NCBI RefSeq assembly: GCF_023074835.1
Contig: NZ_JALLGW010000001.1
Span: 2,232,001 to 2,296,000, forward strand
Direction: 5' to 3'
Source of the DNA: Halomarina salina
GTDB taxonomy: Archaea > Halobacteriota > Halobacteria > Halobacteriales > Haloarculaceae
DNA length: 64,000 nt
Positions within the stretch are counted from its first letter, which is position 1. Every line of letters begins with the position of its first letter. This document shows, one piece after another, positions 931 to 42,490 of the stretch. A program made the position numbers and the translations under genes. The notes beneath the pieces are model-generated. The model had not been told where the DNA came from and made no database searches. It was given only the letters and a program-made list of their open reading frames with translations.

Positions 931-2049
931 TCAGTCGAGCAGGTCGCGCGCGATGACGGTCTTCTGAATCTGGCTCGTCCCCTCGTAGATGGTGAGTATC
1001 TTGGCGTCGCGGTAGAGGCGCTCCACGTCGAACTCGCGGGTGTAGCCGTAGCCACCGTGTGTCTGGACGGCCTCGTTGGTCACGTCCATCGCGCCCTCGC
1101 TGGCGACGTACTTCGCCATGCTCGCCGCGGTGGGGAAGTCGTCGGTCCGCTGGCCCTTCTTCCGGGCGGCGTCGCGGGTCAGCAGCCGACCGGACTGGAC
1201 GGTCGTGTGCATCTCGGCGAGTTTGTGGCGGATGGACTGGATGTCGGCGATGGGACCGTCGAACTGCTCGCGCTCCTGGGCGTAGTCGACCGCCCGGTCC
1301 AGCGCGTCCTGCGCGAGGCCGACCGACTGGGCGGCGATGCCGATACGGCCGCCCGTGAGGATGGAGAGCGCGGCCGACAGCCCCTTCCCCTCCGGAGTGA
1401 GGCGGTTCTCGGCCGGAATCCGAACCTCGTCGAACGTGAGACTCGTCGTGTCGCTGGCGCGCAGGCCGAGTTTCTCCTCCGGTTCGCCGACGCTGAGGCC
1501 GTCGACGTCGCCGGGGACGACGAACTGGGTGACGCCCTCGTCGGTCTTCGCGAAGACGATGTAGACGCCAGCGCGACGGCCGTTCGTGATCCACTGCTTG
1601 TCGCCGCTGACGACGTAGGCGTCGCCGTCTCGCTCCGCGGTGGTGGTCATCTGGGCGGGGTTCGACCCCGCGCCGGGTTCGGAGAGGCAGAACGCGCCGA
1701 CCGGGCGGCCCGCGACCATCTCCGGCAGCCAGCGCTCTCGCTGCTCCTCGTCGCCGAACTCCGCGATGCAGGAGGTGGCGAGGCAGTGGACCGACAGCGC
1801 CGTGGCGACGGCGAGCGTCCCGTACGCCACCTCCTCGTTGACGACGGCGTACGTGACGGGGTCGGCGTCGAACCCGCCGTACTCCTCGGGGACGGTCATG
1901 CCCGTCAGGTCGAGTTCGGCGAGGCCGTCCCACACCTCCTCGGGGAACGTCTCGGTCGCGTCGCACTCCTCGGCGACGGGTTGTATCTCCTCGACCGCGA
2001 ACTCGTGGACCACGTCCCGGATGGCCTCCTGCTCGGCCGTCAGTTGCAT
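931..2049 (-). CDS. acyl-CoA dehydrogenase
   Basis: 372 residues, the usual length for short/medium-chain acyl-CoA dehydrogenases, which use FAD to introduce the 2,3 double bond into acyl-CoA and pass electrons to electron-transfer flavoprotein. Start at MQLTAEQEAI, the standard N-terminus. Visible signatures are CLSEPGAGSN (about 121-130) and KQWITNG (151-157) around FAD, QTHGGYGYTREF (329-340), and the C-terminal IYEGTSQIQK, whose Glu356 is at the position of the catalytic base. A second, differing acyl-CoA dehydrogenase lies at 38822-39976 beside other beta-oxidation genes; this copy has no fatty-acid neighbours. The exact acyl chain used is unknown. Confidence 0.95.
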   Translation of the reverse strand: MQLTAEQEAIRDVVHEFAVEEIQPVAEECDATETFPEEVWDGLAELDLTGMTVPEEYGGFDADPVTYAVVNEEVAYGTLAVATALSVHCLATSCIAEFGDEEQRERWLPEMVAGRPVGAFCLSEPGAGSNPAQMTTTAERDGDAYVVSGDKQWITNGRRAGVYIVFAKTDEGVTQFVVPGDVDGLSVGEPEEKLGLRASDTTSLTFDEVRIPAENRLTPEGKGLSAALSILTGGRIGIAAQSVGLAQDALDRAVDYAQEREQFDGPIADIQSIRHKLAEMHTTVQSGRLLTRDAARKKGQRTDDFPTAASMAKYVASEGAMDVTNEAVQTHGGYGYTREFDVERLYRDAKILTIYEGTSQIQKTVIARDLLD

Positions 2050-2275
2050 ACGCCACCGTCCGCAGTCGCCCCGCAAAAATCGCCCGTTCCGACACGGTGC
2101 TGCCCGGGCGGTGATGGTCGCCACCCGCGTCGAACGCGACGACGGTCGACTTCGTGCCGTCGTGGTCCGCTCCCGAGCCGCTCTCGGTACGTTCGCACGC
2201 GAACAGGAGCGCAGTCCAGTACCGCGGGCGAACGGTGGGAGAAAGTACATCACGGCGGCCTCCACCGTCTGTCCC

Positions 2276-2647
2276 ATGGCCGACACGCCCGACCCCATCG
2301 ACGCGTTCGAGGCCCTCAGCGACGAGACCAGACTCGCCATCGTCCGGACGCTCGCCGACCGGCGCCGTGACCGACCCGACGCCCCCGCGCTCTCGTTCTC
2401 TGCACTCCGCGGACGCGTCGGCGTCCGTGACTCGGGGACGTTCAACTACCACCTGAACCGCCTCCGACGGACGTTCGTGCGGAAGACCGCCGAGGGCTAC
2501 GAACTCGACGCCGATGGGATGCGACTCATCGACGTCGCCGAGGACCGGGTCGAGCCGACACGGGGAGACGCTAGACGTGACAGCGAGTGCCCCGTCTGTG
2601 GAGACGCGAAGTGCGAGCGGGTCCACGTCCACCTCCGTTCGCGCTGA
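2276..2647 (+). CDS. winged-helix (ArsR-type) regulator with C-terminal zinc-knuckle-like motif
   Basis: 123 residues. Residues about 7-85 form a winged helix: FEALSDETRLAIVRTLAD is the usual opening of ArsR-like haloarchaeal regulators and DSGTFNYHLNRLRR is the recognition helix region. The C-terminus has CPVCGDAKCERVH, a C-x2-C-x4-C-x3-H cluster that could hold zinc or another metal, or act as a cysteine switch. ATG chosen at MADTPDP; the long upstream in-frame reading is shadow. It lies alone between divergent acyl-CoA dehydrogenase and convergent alaX-like genes, so its target is not evident. Confidence 0.85.
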   Translation: MADTPDPIDAFEALSDETRLAIVRTLADRRRDRPDAPALSFSALRGRVGVRDSGTFNYHLNRLRRTFVRKTAEGYELDADGMRLIDVAEDRVEPTRGDARRDSECPVCGDAKCERVHVHLRSR

Positions 2648-2665
2648 CCGACGCTGCGAGTTCGC

Positions 2666-3913
2666 CTACTCGCCGCGCAGGAACGCGACGACGGCCTCGG
2701 GGTCCGCCGAGAGCCCGCCGCCCTGCGCGACGGTCGGCGACCCGCCACCGCCGCCGCCGAACTGCTCGGTCACCTCGCTCACGACGGCGCTGGCGTCGTG
2801 GTCGCCGGACGTCGCCACCGCCAGCGAGGAGTCGGCGACCAGTGCGACCACCTCCGCCCCGTCGCCCGCGATGTCCTGCGCCCGGTCGGCCAGCGCGTTC
2901 GCGTCGAGGCCCGCGACGGTGCCGACCACCCAGGTCGAACCGTCTCGCTCGACGGCCCCCTCGCGGAGGTCCGCGAGTCGCGCACCGACCACCTCCTCGC
3001 GGAGGGCGTCGCGCTCGGCGGCGGCCTCGTTCCGGTCGGTTCGCAGGCGCTCGATACCCTGCGGGACCTCGTCGAGGGGCGTGCCGAGGTCGCGGGCCGC
3101 GGCGAGGAGCGCGCGCTTCTCGGTCGCCCGTCGGTCGATGGCGTCCGGGCCGACGGCGAACTCGACGCGGGTCAGTCCCTCGCCGGGGTTCGACCGCCCG
3201 AGGACCGTCACGGGGCCGAGTTCACGGGTGTTCGAGACGTGCGTGCCGCCGCAGGCCGCGACGTCCCAGTCGCCCGGTGCGTCGGCGGCCCCCTGTGGGG
3301 ACGCTTCGGCGTCCTCGGACTCCCTCGAACCGACGGTGACCACCCGGACGGTGTCGGCGTCGAGACCCTCCTCGGTCTTCGTGTTGAACGCGATGTCCGA
3401 CCGAGAGAGCGCTTCTTCCCTCGGGACCTCCGCCCAGGAGACCGGCCGTGACTCCCAGACGACGCGATTGACGAGCCGTTCGAGTCCGACGAGCGCCGCG
3501 TCGTCGACGTCCGTCGGCGTCGAGAAGTCGACCCGCACCTTCTCCGCGGTGATACCGAACCCGCCGTAGCCGAGGTCGTCGAACAGGCGCCGTCCCGCGC
3601 CGTACAGGACGTGGCTGGCGGTGTGCGCGCGCATGCAGTACGTCCGGAACTCCTCGTCGACGGTGCAGGACACCTCGGCACCGGGGGCTATCGCGTCGGC
3701 ATCCCCGTCGCCGTCGAGGTGGTGGACGACCGTCCCGTCCCGGCGCTCGACGTGGACGACGGGAACGCCTTCGATGCGCCCACGGTCGGCCGGTTGCCCG
3801 CCACCTTCGGGGTAGAAGTACGTCTCGGAGAGGACGACCTCGTCGCCGTCCCGGCGTTCGACCTCGGCGTCGAACCCGAGCGTCGACGGGTCCGCCGCGG
3901 CGAGTGATGGCAT
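2666..3913 (-). CDS. alaX: AlaX-type alanyl-tRNA editing protein (long form)
   Basis: 415 residues. It matches the editing half of alanyl-tRNA synthetase without the aminoacylation domain: FYPEGGGQPADRG (about 33-45), HTASH (97-101) and CGGTH (221-225) provide the zinc-binding His/Cys set, then a coiled helix and a C-terminal DHHA1-like domain ending in a glycine-rich GGGGGGSPTVAQGGG stretch. The family hydrolyses Ser-tRNA(Ala) or Gly-tRNA(Ala) in trans; the DHHA1 tail marks the AlaX-L form. Start at MPSLAAADPST; further in-frame upstream sequence is shadow. Neighbours are convergent or independent, so it is probably its own unit. Confidence 0.92.
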   Translation of the reverse strand: MPSLAAADPSTLGFDAEVERRDGDEVVLSETYFYPEGGGQPADRGRIEGVPVVHVERRDGTVVHHLDGDGDADAIAPGAEVSCTVDEEFRTYCMRAHTASHVLYGAGRRLFDDLGYGGFGITAEKVRVDFSTPTDVDDAALVGLERLVNRVVWESRPVSWAEVPREEALSRSDIAFNTKTEEGLDADTVRVVTVGSRESEDAEASPQGAADAPGDWDVAACGGTHVSNTRELGPVTVLGRSNPGEGLTRVEFAVGPDAIDRRATEKRALLAAARDLGTPLDEVPQGIERLRTDRNEAAAERDALREEVVGARLADLREGAVERDGSTWVVGTVAGLDANALADRAQDIAGDGAEVVALVADSSLAVATSGDHDASAVVSEVTEQFGGGGGGSPTVAQGGGLSADPEAVVAFLRGE

Positions 3914-42145: not shown

Positions 42146-42206
42146 GCTCGGTCGTCCCACGGAGCGAAGCGACGTGGGCACAGCGCTGAGCGAAGTGACG
42201 CTCGGT
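42146..42206. repeat. 54-bp segment between two GCTCGGT copies, upstream of tRNA-Glu
   Basis: GCTCGGT occurs at 42146-42152 and again at 42200-42206, where it begins the tRNA. Between them are two hairpins with GAGCGAAGCGA-type loops: CCCACG...CGTGGG (42156-42178) and AGCG...CGCT. This looks like an insertion that duplicated seven bases. Confidence 0.6.
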
Positions 42207-42274
42207 TGGTGTAGTCCGGCCAATCATTTCGGCCTTTCGAGCCGATGACACGGGTTCAAATCCCGTACCGAGCA
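42200..42274 (+). tRNA. tRNA-Glu (anticodon UUC)
   Basis: 75 nt. Acceptor GCTCGGT (42200-42206) pairs with ACCGAGC (42267-42273), discriminator A. Anticodon arm TCGGC / CTTTCGA / GCCGA, TTC at 42236-42238. The T arm CGGGTTCAAATCCCG is intact. No CCA encoded. The final 22 bases are repeated exactly at 42368-42389. Confidence 0.93.
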
Positions 42275-42316
42275 TTCTGCGAGGAGTATCCCGACGAGCA
42301 GATGCGCGACGAGTGG

Positions 42317-42389
42317 TTTGAACCCTGCGAGACGCAGCACGAACGGAGTGAGTGACCGTCTCGCTTCGGTTCAAATCCCGTACCGAGCA
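42317..42389 (+). repeat. stem-loop ending in an exact copy of the tRNA-Glu 3' 22 bases
   Basis: 42368-42389 repeats 42253-42274 exactly (GGTTCAAATCCCG...CGAGCA). Its first eight bases GGTTCAAA pair with TTTGAACC at 42317-42324, and inside that GCGAGACG (42327-42334) pairs with CGTCTCGC (42357-42364), giving a 16-bp interrupted stem with a 22-base loop containing GAACGGAGTGAGTGA. The copy lacks the D and anticodon arms and cannot be a tRNA. Confidence 0.8.
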
Positions 42390-42468
42390 CTTTTCGAGTG
42401 AACGTAGTGAGCGCGAAGAGCGCACAGCGTCGGGAGTTGTATCGGGAGAGAGCGAAGCGAGCGAGTGC

Positions 42469-42490
42469 GGTTCGCGTCCCGCCCTGAGCA
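42469..42490 (+). repeat. third, decayed copy of the tRNA-Glu tail
   Basis: GGTTCGCGTCCCGCCC then TGAGCA matches the tRNA tail at 16 of 22 positions and follows another GAGCGAAGCGAGCGAG tract (42450-42465). Spacing from the previous copy is 101 bases. Confidence 0.5.

Follow-up and report, generated by a model that had tools for sequence, protein, structure and literature searches.

Integrons and CTX phage are described cases in which a folded single strand of DNA serves as a recombination site. In integrons only the folded strand is exchanged, and the attC core has the consensus GTTRRRY. The attP of CTX phage is a folded single strand in which two inverted att segments pair to form the recombination site, and its target is dif with XerCD. 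Tyrosine integrases also use attachment sites in tRNA genes. Phage Ms6 integrates using the T-loop (PMC1762012, excerpt), and an element with a T-loop integrase restores the tRNA from the crossover to the end of the gene (PMC4383910 and PMC1762012, excerpts). In excerpt, PMC8371274 describes the 7-bp tRNA loop flanked by a stem as the usual overlap and core site of a tyrosine recombinase, whose cuts in the two strands fall at the edges of such a loop with an offset of 6-8 bp, and reports a 14-nt att block within tRNA tails for SNJ2-type haloarchaeal elements. In Methanopyrus kandleri a palindrome lies just behind about half of the tRNA genes (PMC5217627, excerpt).

Here we describe hairpin units behind a tRNA-Glu(TTC) gene of Halomarina salina, found in a stretch of 64,000 nucleotides that we call the window, together with related arrays in other Halobacteria. 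The arrays share with T-loop attachment sites such as that of Ms6 an identity block running from the T-loop to the 3' end and a displaced tail at the far end. They differ in that no integrase or cargo lies between the copies (the units are mostly too short for a gene), in that the units measure tens of bp rather than kilobases and are stacked in tandem at many tRNAs, and in that the far copy lies within a hairpin. They resemble integron attC sites and cassette arrays in several ways: the hairpin is imperfect and its foot carries inverted core sequences, the most recent member is the one next to the platform, the junction falls where the foot stem ends on its inner side, and there is a dependence on strand, which in our case is an association between strand and junction only. 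As in attC, the core has a complementary partner, the arm (145 of 159 units). In contrast to integrons, the platform is a tRNA gene, most units are without a gene and the copy core reads GTTCRAA; given this departure from the GTTRRRY consensus, the units do not appear to be members of integrons.

The CTX phage attP likewise has inverted att segments that form a recombination site from one strand, but no virus was found for the Halobacteria units: one exact junction pattern gave 0 matches in viral contigs, and among the best 20 of 40 matches in a phage collection the tRNA part alone was matched. The att block of SNJ2-type elements has the length of our type-B block (14 nt), yet the SNJ2 site is called free of stem-loops and the elements carry an integrase (PMC8371274, excerpt). 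The M. kandleri palindrome shares the placement but differs in sequence and, in the excerpted text of PMC5217627, is without a tail copy and does not extend to Halobacteria. We found no account of these arrays in the literature covered, which consisted of freely available journal articles; they are not described in the excerpts of PMC5217627, PMC3119063, PMC8371274, PMC8373063, PMC1762012 and PMC9668308, and neither "halo" nor "tRNA" occurs in the main text of the archaeal-integron paper.

The tRNA-Glu(TTC) locus

A sequence-only reading of the locus had noted that the last 22 bases of tRNA-Glu recur downstream as part of a hairpin, and this description is borne out (Table 1). The recurrence is exact, at 115 bp start to start; the complementary arm TTTGAACC (42317-42324) lies 43 bases ahead of the copy, the second stem inside the hairpin is confirmed at 8 bp, and the third, decayed copy is indeed present. 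The statement that there is no integrase here also holds, as none of the 10 Phage_integrase (PF00589) matches in the genome falls in the window or near the tRNA-Glu locus. With up to 3 mismatches, the 22-mer occurs at only two sites in the whole 4.46-Mb genome, which excludes chance for the tRNA-Glu copy.

Table 1. Features of the tRNA-Glu(TTC) locus (positions within the window).
Feature	Position	Strand	Source
tRNA 5'-end repeat (GCTCGGT, 42146-42152) and GA-type hairpins	42146-42199	+	
tRNA-Glu (TTC)	42200-42274	+	ARAGORN and Rfam
Attachment-like identity block, the last 22 nt of tRNA-Glu	42253-42274	+	repeat finder
First stem-loop segment (SLI) of unit 1, directly after tRNA-Glu	42275-42311	+	sequence comparison
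5' arm of unit-1 hairpin, complementary to T-loop start of tail copy	42315-42324	+	
Inner hairpin of unit 1, 8-bp stem 42327-42334 / 42357-42364	42327-42364	+	
GA-type core with GGA triloop inside unit-1 inner hairpin	42340-42352	+	
Exact tRNA-Glu tail copy, 3' arm of hairpin and end of unit 1	42368-42389	+	
Unit 2; its orthologues are the unit nearest the tRNA in G004 and a decayed unit in G006	42390-42468	+	
Decayed tail copy (16/22), end of unit 2	42469-42490	+	

Sequence comparison places a near match to the unit-1 SLI in G004 (locus L006), after that genome's own tail copy. Unit 2 is matched by R1, our model of the commonest core type, at 42430-42482 with 28.9 bits. On the other side of the gene, GCTCGGT, the 5' end of tRNA-Glu, occurs a second time 54 bp upstream, beside GAGCGAAGCGA-type hairpins. 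This upstream repeat is present in the window genome (G000) and G004 and absent in G006, and is a putative related hairpin insertion on the 5' side of the tRNA as well. Folded as RNA the window hairpin has a z-score of -2.27; as DNA the scores are -3.55 (+ strand) and -3.20 (- strand), and standard DNA folding energies give neither strand an advantage (-16.8 and -16.9).

Around the locus lie ordinary genes of metabolism (acyl-CoA dehydrogenase, hydroxyacyl-CoA dehydrogenase/enoyl-CoA hydratase, HalOD1, Hsp20, AMP-binding enzyme and SpoVR). The same window holds tRNA-Leu(CAA) (59194-), with a 22/22 tail copy 83 nt past its end. A search of the window with Rfam returned tRNAs only, with no other family above the gathering score.

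Occurrence in Halobacteria and the link to tRNA genes

The tRNA-Glu locus is one of many. Among the 43 Rfam tRNAs of the Halomarina genome, the full set scanned for tail copies, 25 are followed within 400 nt by a copy of their own tail (at least 17/22), and in no case does such a copy lie in the 400 nt upstream. A 1000-nt scan that leaves out tRNA-Lys(CTT) (L047) gave 24/42 downstream, 0/42 upstream and 1/42 on the reverse strand, against a control in which the tails of other tRNAs matched in 84 of 1722 pairs; all such counts hinge on the gene ends given by ARAGORN and on the cut-off, 16 or 17 of 22. Up to three copies stand in tandem, for example behind tRNA-Val(TAC) and tRNA-Arg(TCG), each with 21-22 of 22 bases. 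In a class-wide sample of the best-scoring tRNAs from 59 Halobacteria genomes, 9 of 40 had a tail copy, and tRNAs from other classes of the phylum had none (0/28).

At E<=1e-8 the R1 model finds matches in 123 of the 145 Halobacteria genomes and in 53 of the 59 genera, the E-values of this model and of the type-B model R2 being rough. In a phylum sample of 196 genomes, 25 had an R1 match, all of them from the order of the window genome. Within the Halomarina genome 18 of the 19 R1 matches of at least 40 bits lie close behind a tRNA, and the 19th lies 1.3 kb behind tRNA-Leu(TAG), separated from it by an insert. The genome sets overlap in records, with identical loci removed by sequence, and the 226 tRNA loci used below mix unbiased and unit-selected loci, a set fit for anatomy and unfit for frequency. 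We regard the tRNA-tail hairpin units as a class-wide family of Halobacteria.

The link between hairpin and tRNA was tested independently with an exact pattern that comprised arm, core and T-loop part and omitted the acceptor part, in one genome each of 84,980 species. The pattern matched 37 stretches, all in Halobacteria records; 36 of them are found behind a tRNA of the same strand at a distance of 69-335 nt, and the 37th lies behind tRNA-Gln with an insert in between. The 10-nt acceptor part matches the adjacent tRNA at 7/10 or better in 31 of the 37 and at 10/10 in 16, against 2.4% of comparisons reaching at least 7/10 for tails of other tRNA kinds. Chance had been named as the alternative should hairpin and copy vary independently and the copy occur at many non-tRNA sites. 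The opposite was found, with hairpins behind tRNAs and acceptor parts that follow them, and the proposed tRNA link stands.

Other weak R1 matches in the window genome, among them L132, L133 and L140, have the same core with other complementary arms and lie away from tRNAs; at L140 direct repeats also flank the hairpin. Eight non-tRNA hairpin loci searched with Rfam returned one tRNA and nothing else, and the units are not an Rfam family.

Unit structure, strand and junction

The tail copies form tandem units of about 75-230 bp each. Every unit runs from the tail through the SLI, a short spacer, the 5' arm and the GA-type hairpin core to the next tail copy. The few core types are common to different tRNA species and genera. 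The arms are tRNA-specific. In 71 of 77 units the arm matches the complement of the T-loop and T-stem of the tail at 7/10 or better, with complementarity that covers tail positions 0-11 and declines beyond, and in a larger set an arm that fits the copy at 7/10 or better precedes it in 145 of 159 units. Position 57 is informative in this respect: over 78 units the table of tail against arm is [[36,10],[0,23]] (p=8e-11), that of tail against copy is [[37,10],[1,23]], and in the independent pattern-scan set the arm fits position 57 of the tail in 36 of 37. The arms thus follow the tRNA's own sequence. At differences between copy and tail, the arm agrees with the tail in 27 cases and with the copy in 15.

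The loops of the hairpins are of kinds stable in DNA rather than RNA. GNA triloops are exceptionally stable in DNA, and 87 of the 130 C-G-closed triloops at the 226 loci are GNA. Among 95 C-G-closed tetraloops on the tRNA strand of the same loci, 49 are GNNA (only 5 of them GNRA) and 31 are GNAB, together 80/95; both kinds are stable in DNA (PMC8373063, excerpt, citing Nakano et al. 2002). The equal DNA folding energies of the two strands of the window hairpin count against this DNA reading, as do the double changes in inner pairs described next.

These loops bear on the idea that the units are an RNA device, namely hairpins in the 3' trailer that terminate transcription or act as a guide for tRNase Z or an sRNA. 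The units do come directly after the tRNA, and inner pairs of type A (defined below) show double changes (columns 24-31, for example, with GC 9, AU 6 and CG 5), one inner pair having GC 9 and GU 8. However, the loops are GNYA, GNAB or GNA and not GNRA, 18 of the 43 tRNAs of this genome have no copy, and one of the two unit types carries its motif on the antisense strand. Furthermore, arm mismatches (G.T 44, A.C 38, other 72) show no wobble bias; RNA pairing would favour G.T, so they hold no RNA signal. We consider an RNA device very improbable. Of the ideas raised in the sequence-only reading, our results support those of an att site and a folded-DNA substrate, and speak against a tRNase Z decoy and a transcription end signal, in both cases because of the DNA-type loops, the missing wobble bias and the antisense motif.

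The two unit types differ in where the copy begins and on which strand the hairpin lies. In type A the T-loop is part of the copy. In type B the copy begins at position 8, the 3' edge of the T-loop, and the partner of the 5' arm is T-stem plus acceptor. Without the 44 A and 7 B copies that have no scored core, type A units have the GA core on the tRNA strand in 77 cases and on the opposite strand in 2; type B units have it on the opposite strand in 19 and on the tRNA strand in 6 (A vs B, p = 1e-13). Judged by eye, these 6 same-strand B copies (L023, L053, L057, L097, L230 and L234) are type A copies with an indel or change in the T-loop. Similarly, the top matches of R1 lie on the tRNA strand in 26 of 26 cases (3 of 29 have no tRNA close by) and those of R2 on the opposite strand in 29 of 29 (1 of 30 has no tRNA close by), the latter being partly built in, since R2 was made from antisense B hairpins.

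The copied block has sharp edges. A profile over 159 units shows that it extends from the T-loop to the exact last tRNA base. Identity of the copies to their own tRNA is at control level at position -1, 0.94-0.99 at positions 10-15 (control 0.26-0.85), holds near 0.9 as far as the end of the gene with 0.82 at the last tRNA base (control 0.39), and falls to 0.53 against 0.47 one base beyond. Base 0 is the same as in the tRNA in only 1 of 11 informative units, which places the left edge at or just inside the 5' edge of the T-loop; as T-loop positions 1-4 are alike in all tRNAs, the A junction is placed only between positions 0 and 5. The B junction is placed after position 7, and a stagger of 6-8 bp is compatible with the A and B ranges. 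A T-loop integrase leaves just such a block, the classic attachment block.

Together, the arrays, block boundaries, tRNA-specific arms, polarity (see below), DNA-type loops and rule of strand and junction are best explained, in our view, by stacked, cargo-free mini integrative units at a tRNA attachment site, probably recombined as folded single-stranded DNA, a reading to which we give a probability of roughly 45%. We infer that a tyrosine recombinase acts on the units and that it uses folded single-stranded DNA. The copy at 42368 would then be the old tRNA tail, displaced by a mini unit that entered tRNA-Glu at the T-loop. Each unit, in a circular or folded form, would bring an SLI, a 5' arm, a GA-type core and a tail that restores the tRNA, and the previous tail would stay at the far end of the unit. 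Arm and tail may pair into a duplex of T-loop and T-stem, half an attachment site made from one DNA strand, which would let a tyrosine recombinase use the folded single strand in the way that integron integrases use attC.

If this reading is right, many tRNA genes throughout an archaeal class harbour arrays of miniature mobile units, and these went unnoticed because tail copies were read singly as prophage scars. The units would represent natural recombination of folded single-stranded DNA outside integrons and CTX-type phages, would account for odd repeats behind haloarchaeal tRNA genes, and would caution against calling each tail copy a provirus end. They might also provide an insertion system for haloarchaeal genetics. 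The rule of strand and junction renders the mechanism directly testable.

Two other origins were considered and rejected. In the units inspected no CCA follows the copies, as a reverse-transcribed tRNA fragment would have it, and by eye the SLI start and core end are not mutual inverted repeats of the kind found at casposon- or transposon-like ends.

Possible growth of the arrays

If new units enter next to the tRNA, older units should lie further out and decay. In 18 of 35 arrays of at least two units the first copy resembles the tRNA better than later copies do, in 15 equally well and in 2 less well, as expected for entry beside the tRNA; decay from lack of selection would yield the same polarity. 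At tRNA-Glu within the genus of the window, the tRNA-nearest unit of G004 is the second, decayed unit here, and a different unit is nearest here. By eye, the same units also occur in changed order at tRNA-Glu of the window genome and G004, and at Glu-TTC and Glu-CTC of G001. Orthologous empty sites exist in one other genus, where 26 of 28 parsed tRNA-Met loci have no unit and 2 have one; at these two, tail, arm and copy differ together, being all G57 or all A57.

Such joint changes are also expected from replication template switching with gene conversion, which dispenses with a recombinase. Hairpins and inverted repeats are classic substrates for polymerase template jumps. The T-arm and GA hairpins would make the polymerase jump, slippage would give rise to copies, arms and tandem units, and conversion in these polyploid archaea would keep tail, arm and copy alike. 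Consistent with this, tandem near-identical units occur (G045 has four R1 matches of equal score 111 bp apart), and hairpin repeats with complementary arms of their own are found away from tRNAs. On the other hand, the block is bounded by the T-loop edge on one side and exactly by the last tRNA base on the other, not by stem feet or scattered sites, and the core sequence is common to many tRNA species and genera. Furthermore, the junction depends on the strand of the hairpin, as exchange of a single folded strand predicts, and for this reason we prefer a folded single-strand reaction. The better fit of arms to tail than to copy (27 against 15) is an outcome that the model of integrative units favours only weakly. 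Template switching thus seems to us rather unlikely.

Inserts in tail copies and candidate gene cassettes

Tail copies can receive integrating DNA, as seen in two cases only. In Haloferax marinum (L181, + strand, about 1390-3350) an insert of ~2 kb, flanked by CCGCCTG, splits the first tRNA-Gln tail copy. An ORF reaching into it has similarity to an integrase SAM domain (PF02899, E = 4.8e-05); only the start of this ORF belongs to the insert, since the frame continues through the att side and the tRNA. In the window genome (L241, G000:C1:2498700-2502000) a 1.3-kb insert with a DUF5518 ORF lies in the first tRNA-Leu(TAG) tail copy, flanked by TCCCACGCACTC. Both inserts spared the tRNA itself, as would be expected if the copies were host-made decoys, kept because integrating viruses and plasmids insert there and not in the tRNA gene. 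Yet there are just these two, other inserts hit the tRNA itself (L042 and L237), and decoys leave the hairpin arms and the strand rule unexplained; we regard this explanation as improbable. At L042 (1575-2577, G002) an insert of ~1 kb with a lipoprotein-like ORF, and with no integrase ORF seen, separates tRNA-Lys(CTT) from the displaced tail end and unit.

Arrays are also found behind a 3' piece of tRNA-Gly and of tRNA-Gln whose 5' part is missing (L237/L238 in G099:C11 and L240 in G029), and these are probably array ends displaced by integrated elements. We considered and rejected the possibility that the units are the distal attR of larger elements: the isolated units L211 and L235, with no tRNA near, follow a tRNA-Gly 3' half and a tRNA-Gln 3' piece, which points to arrays displaced by ordinary elements and not to the ends of those elements.

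The boldest hint of gene cassettes may be L272 (4853-10297, G158:C14, a Haloferax-type contig), where tRNA-Arg(CCG) is followed by tail copies of 14 bp in alternation with type-B hairpins and segments of gene size. The segments carry a PIN ORF, an HTH ORF with a PIN-like one, a Fic ORF and a PemK-like ORF with HTH. Single Ns stand at offsets 162, 1182, 1434 and 4512 from the tRNA, and the sole stretch unbroken by Ns is the one that holds the HTH/PIN-like and Fic segments together with a B hairpin. The segment ends look conserved. From such a locus one might propose that Halobacteria run an integron-like cassette system with the tRNA gene as platform, in which attC-like hairpins folded from one DNA strand recombine at that strand's T-loop edge, so that as many as about half of the tRNA genes would carry stacked empty cassettes and some places gene cassettes. 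We consider this wider proposal doubtful.

Two further features of the copies were seen. At L053, L057, L228, L230, L234 and L184, which belong to unrelated tRNAs, the tail copies have one extra T-loop base (GTTCANAATCC-like). At tRNA-Gly(GCC), L229 and L232 (G008 and G014) have an insert of unrelated sequence between two 22/22 tail copies of one array, and this insert contains a strong hairpin and runs of T and A.
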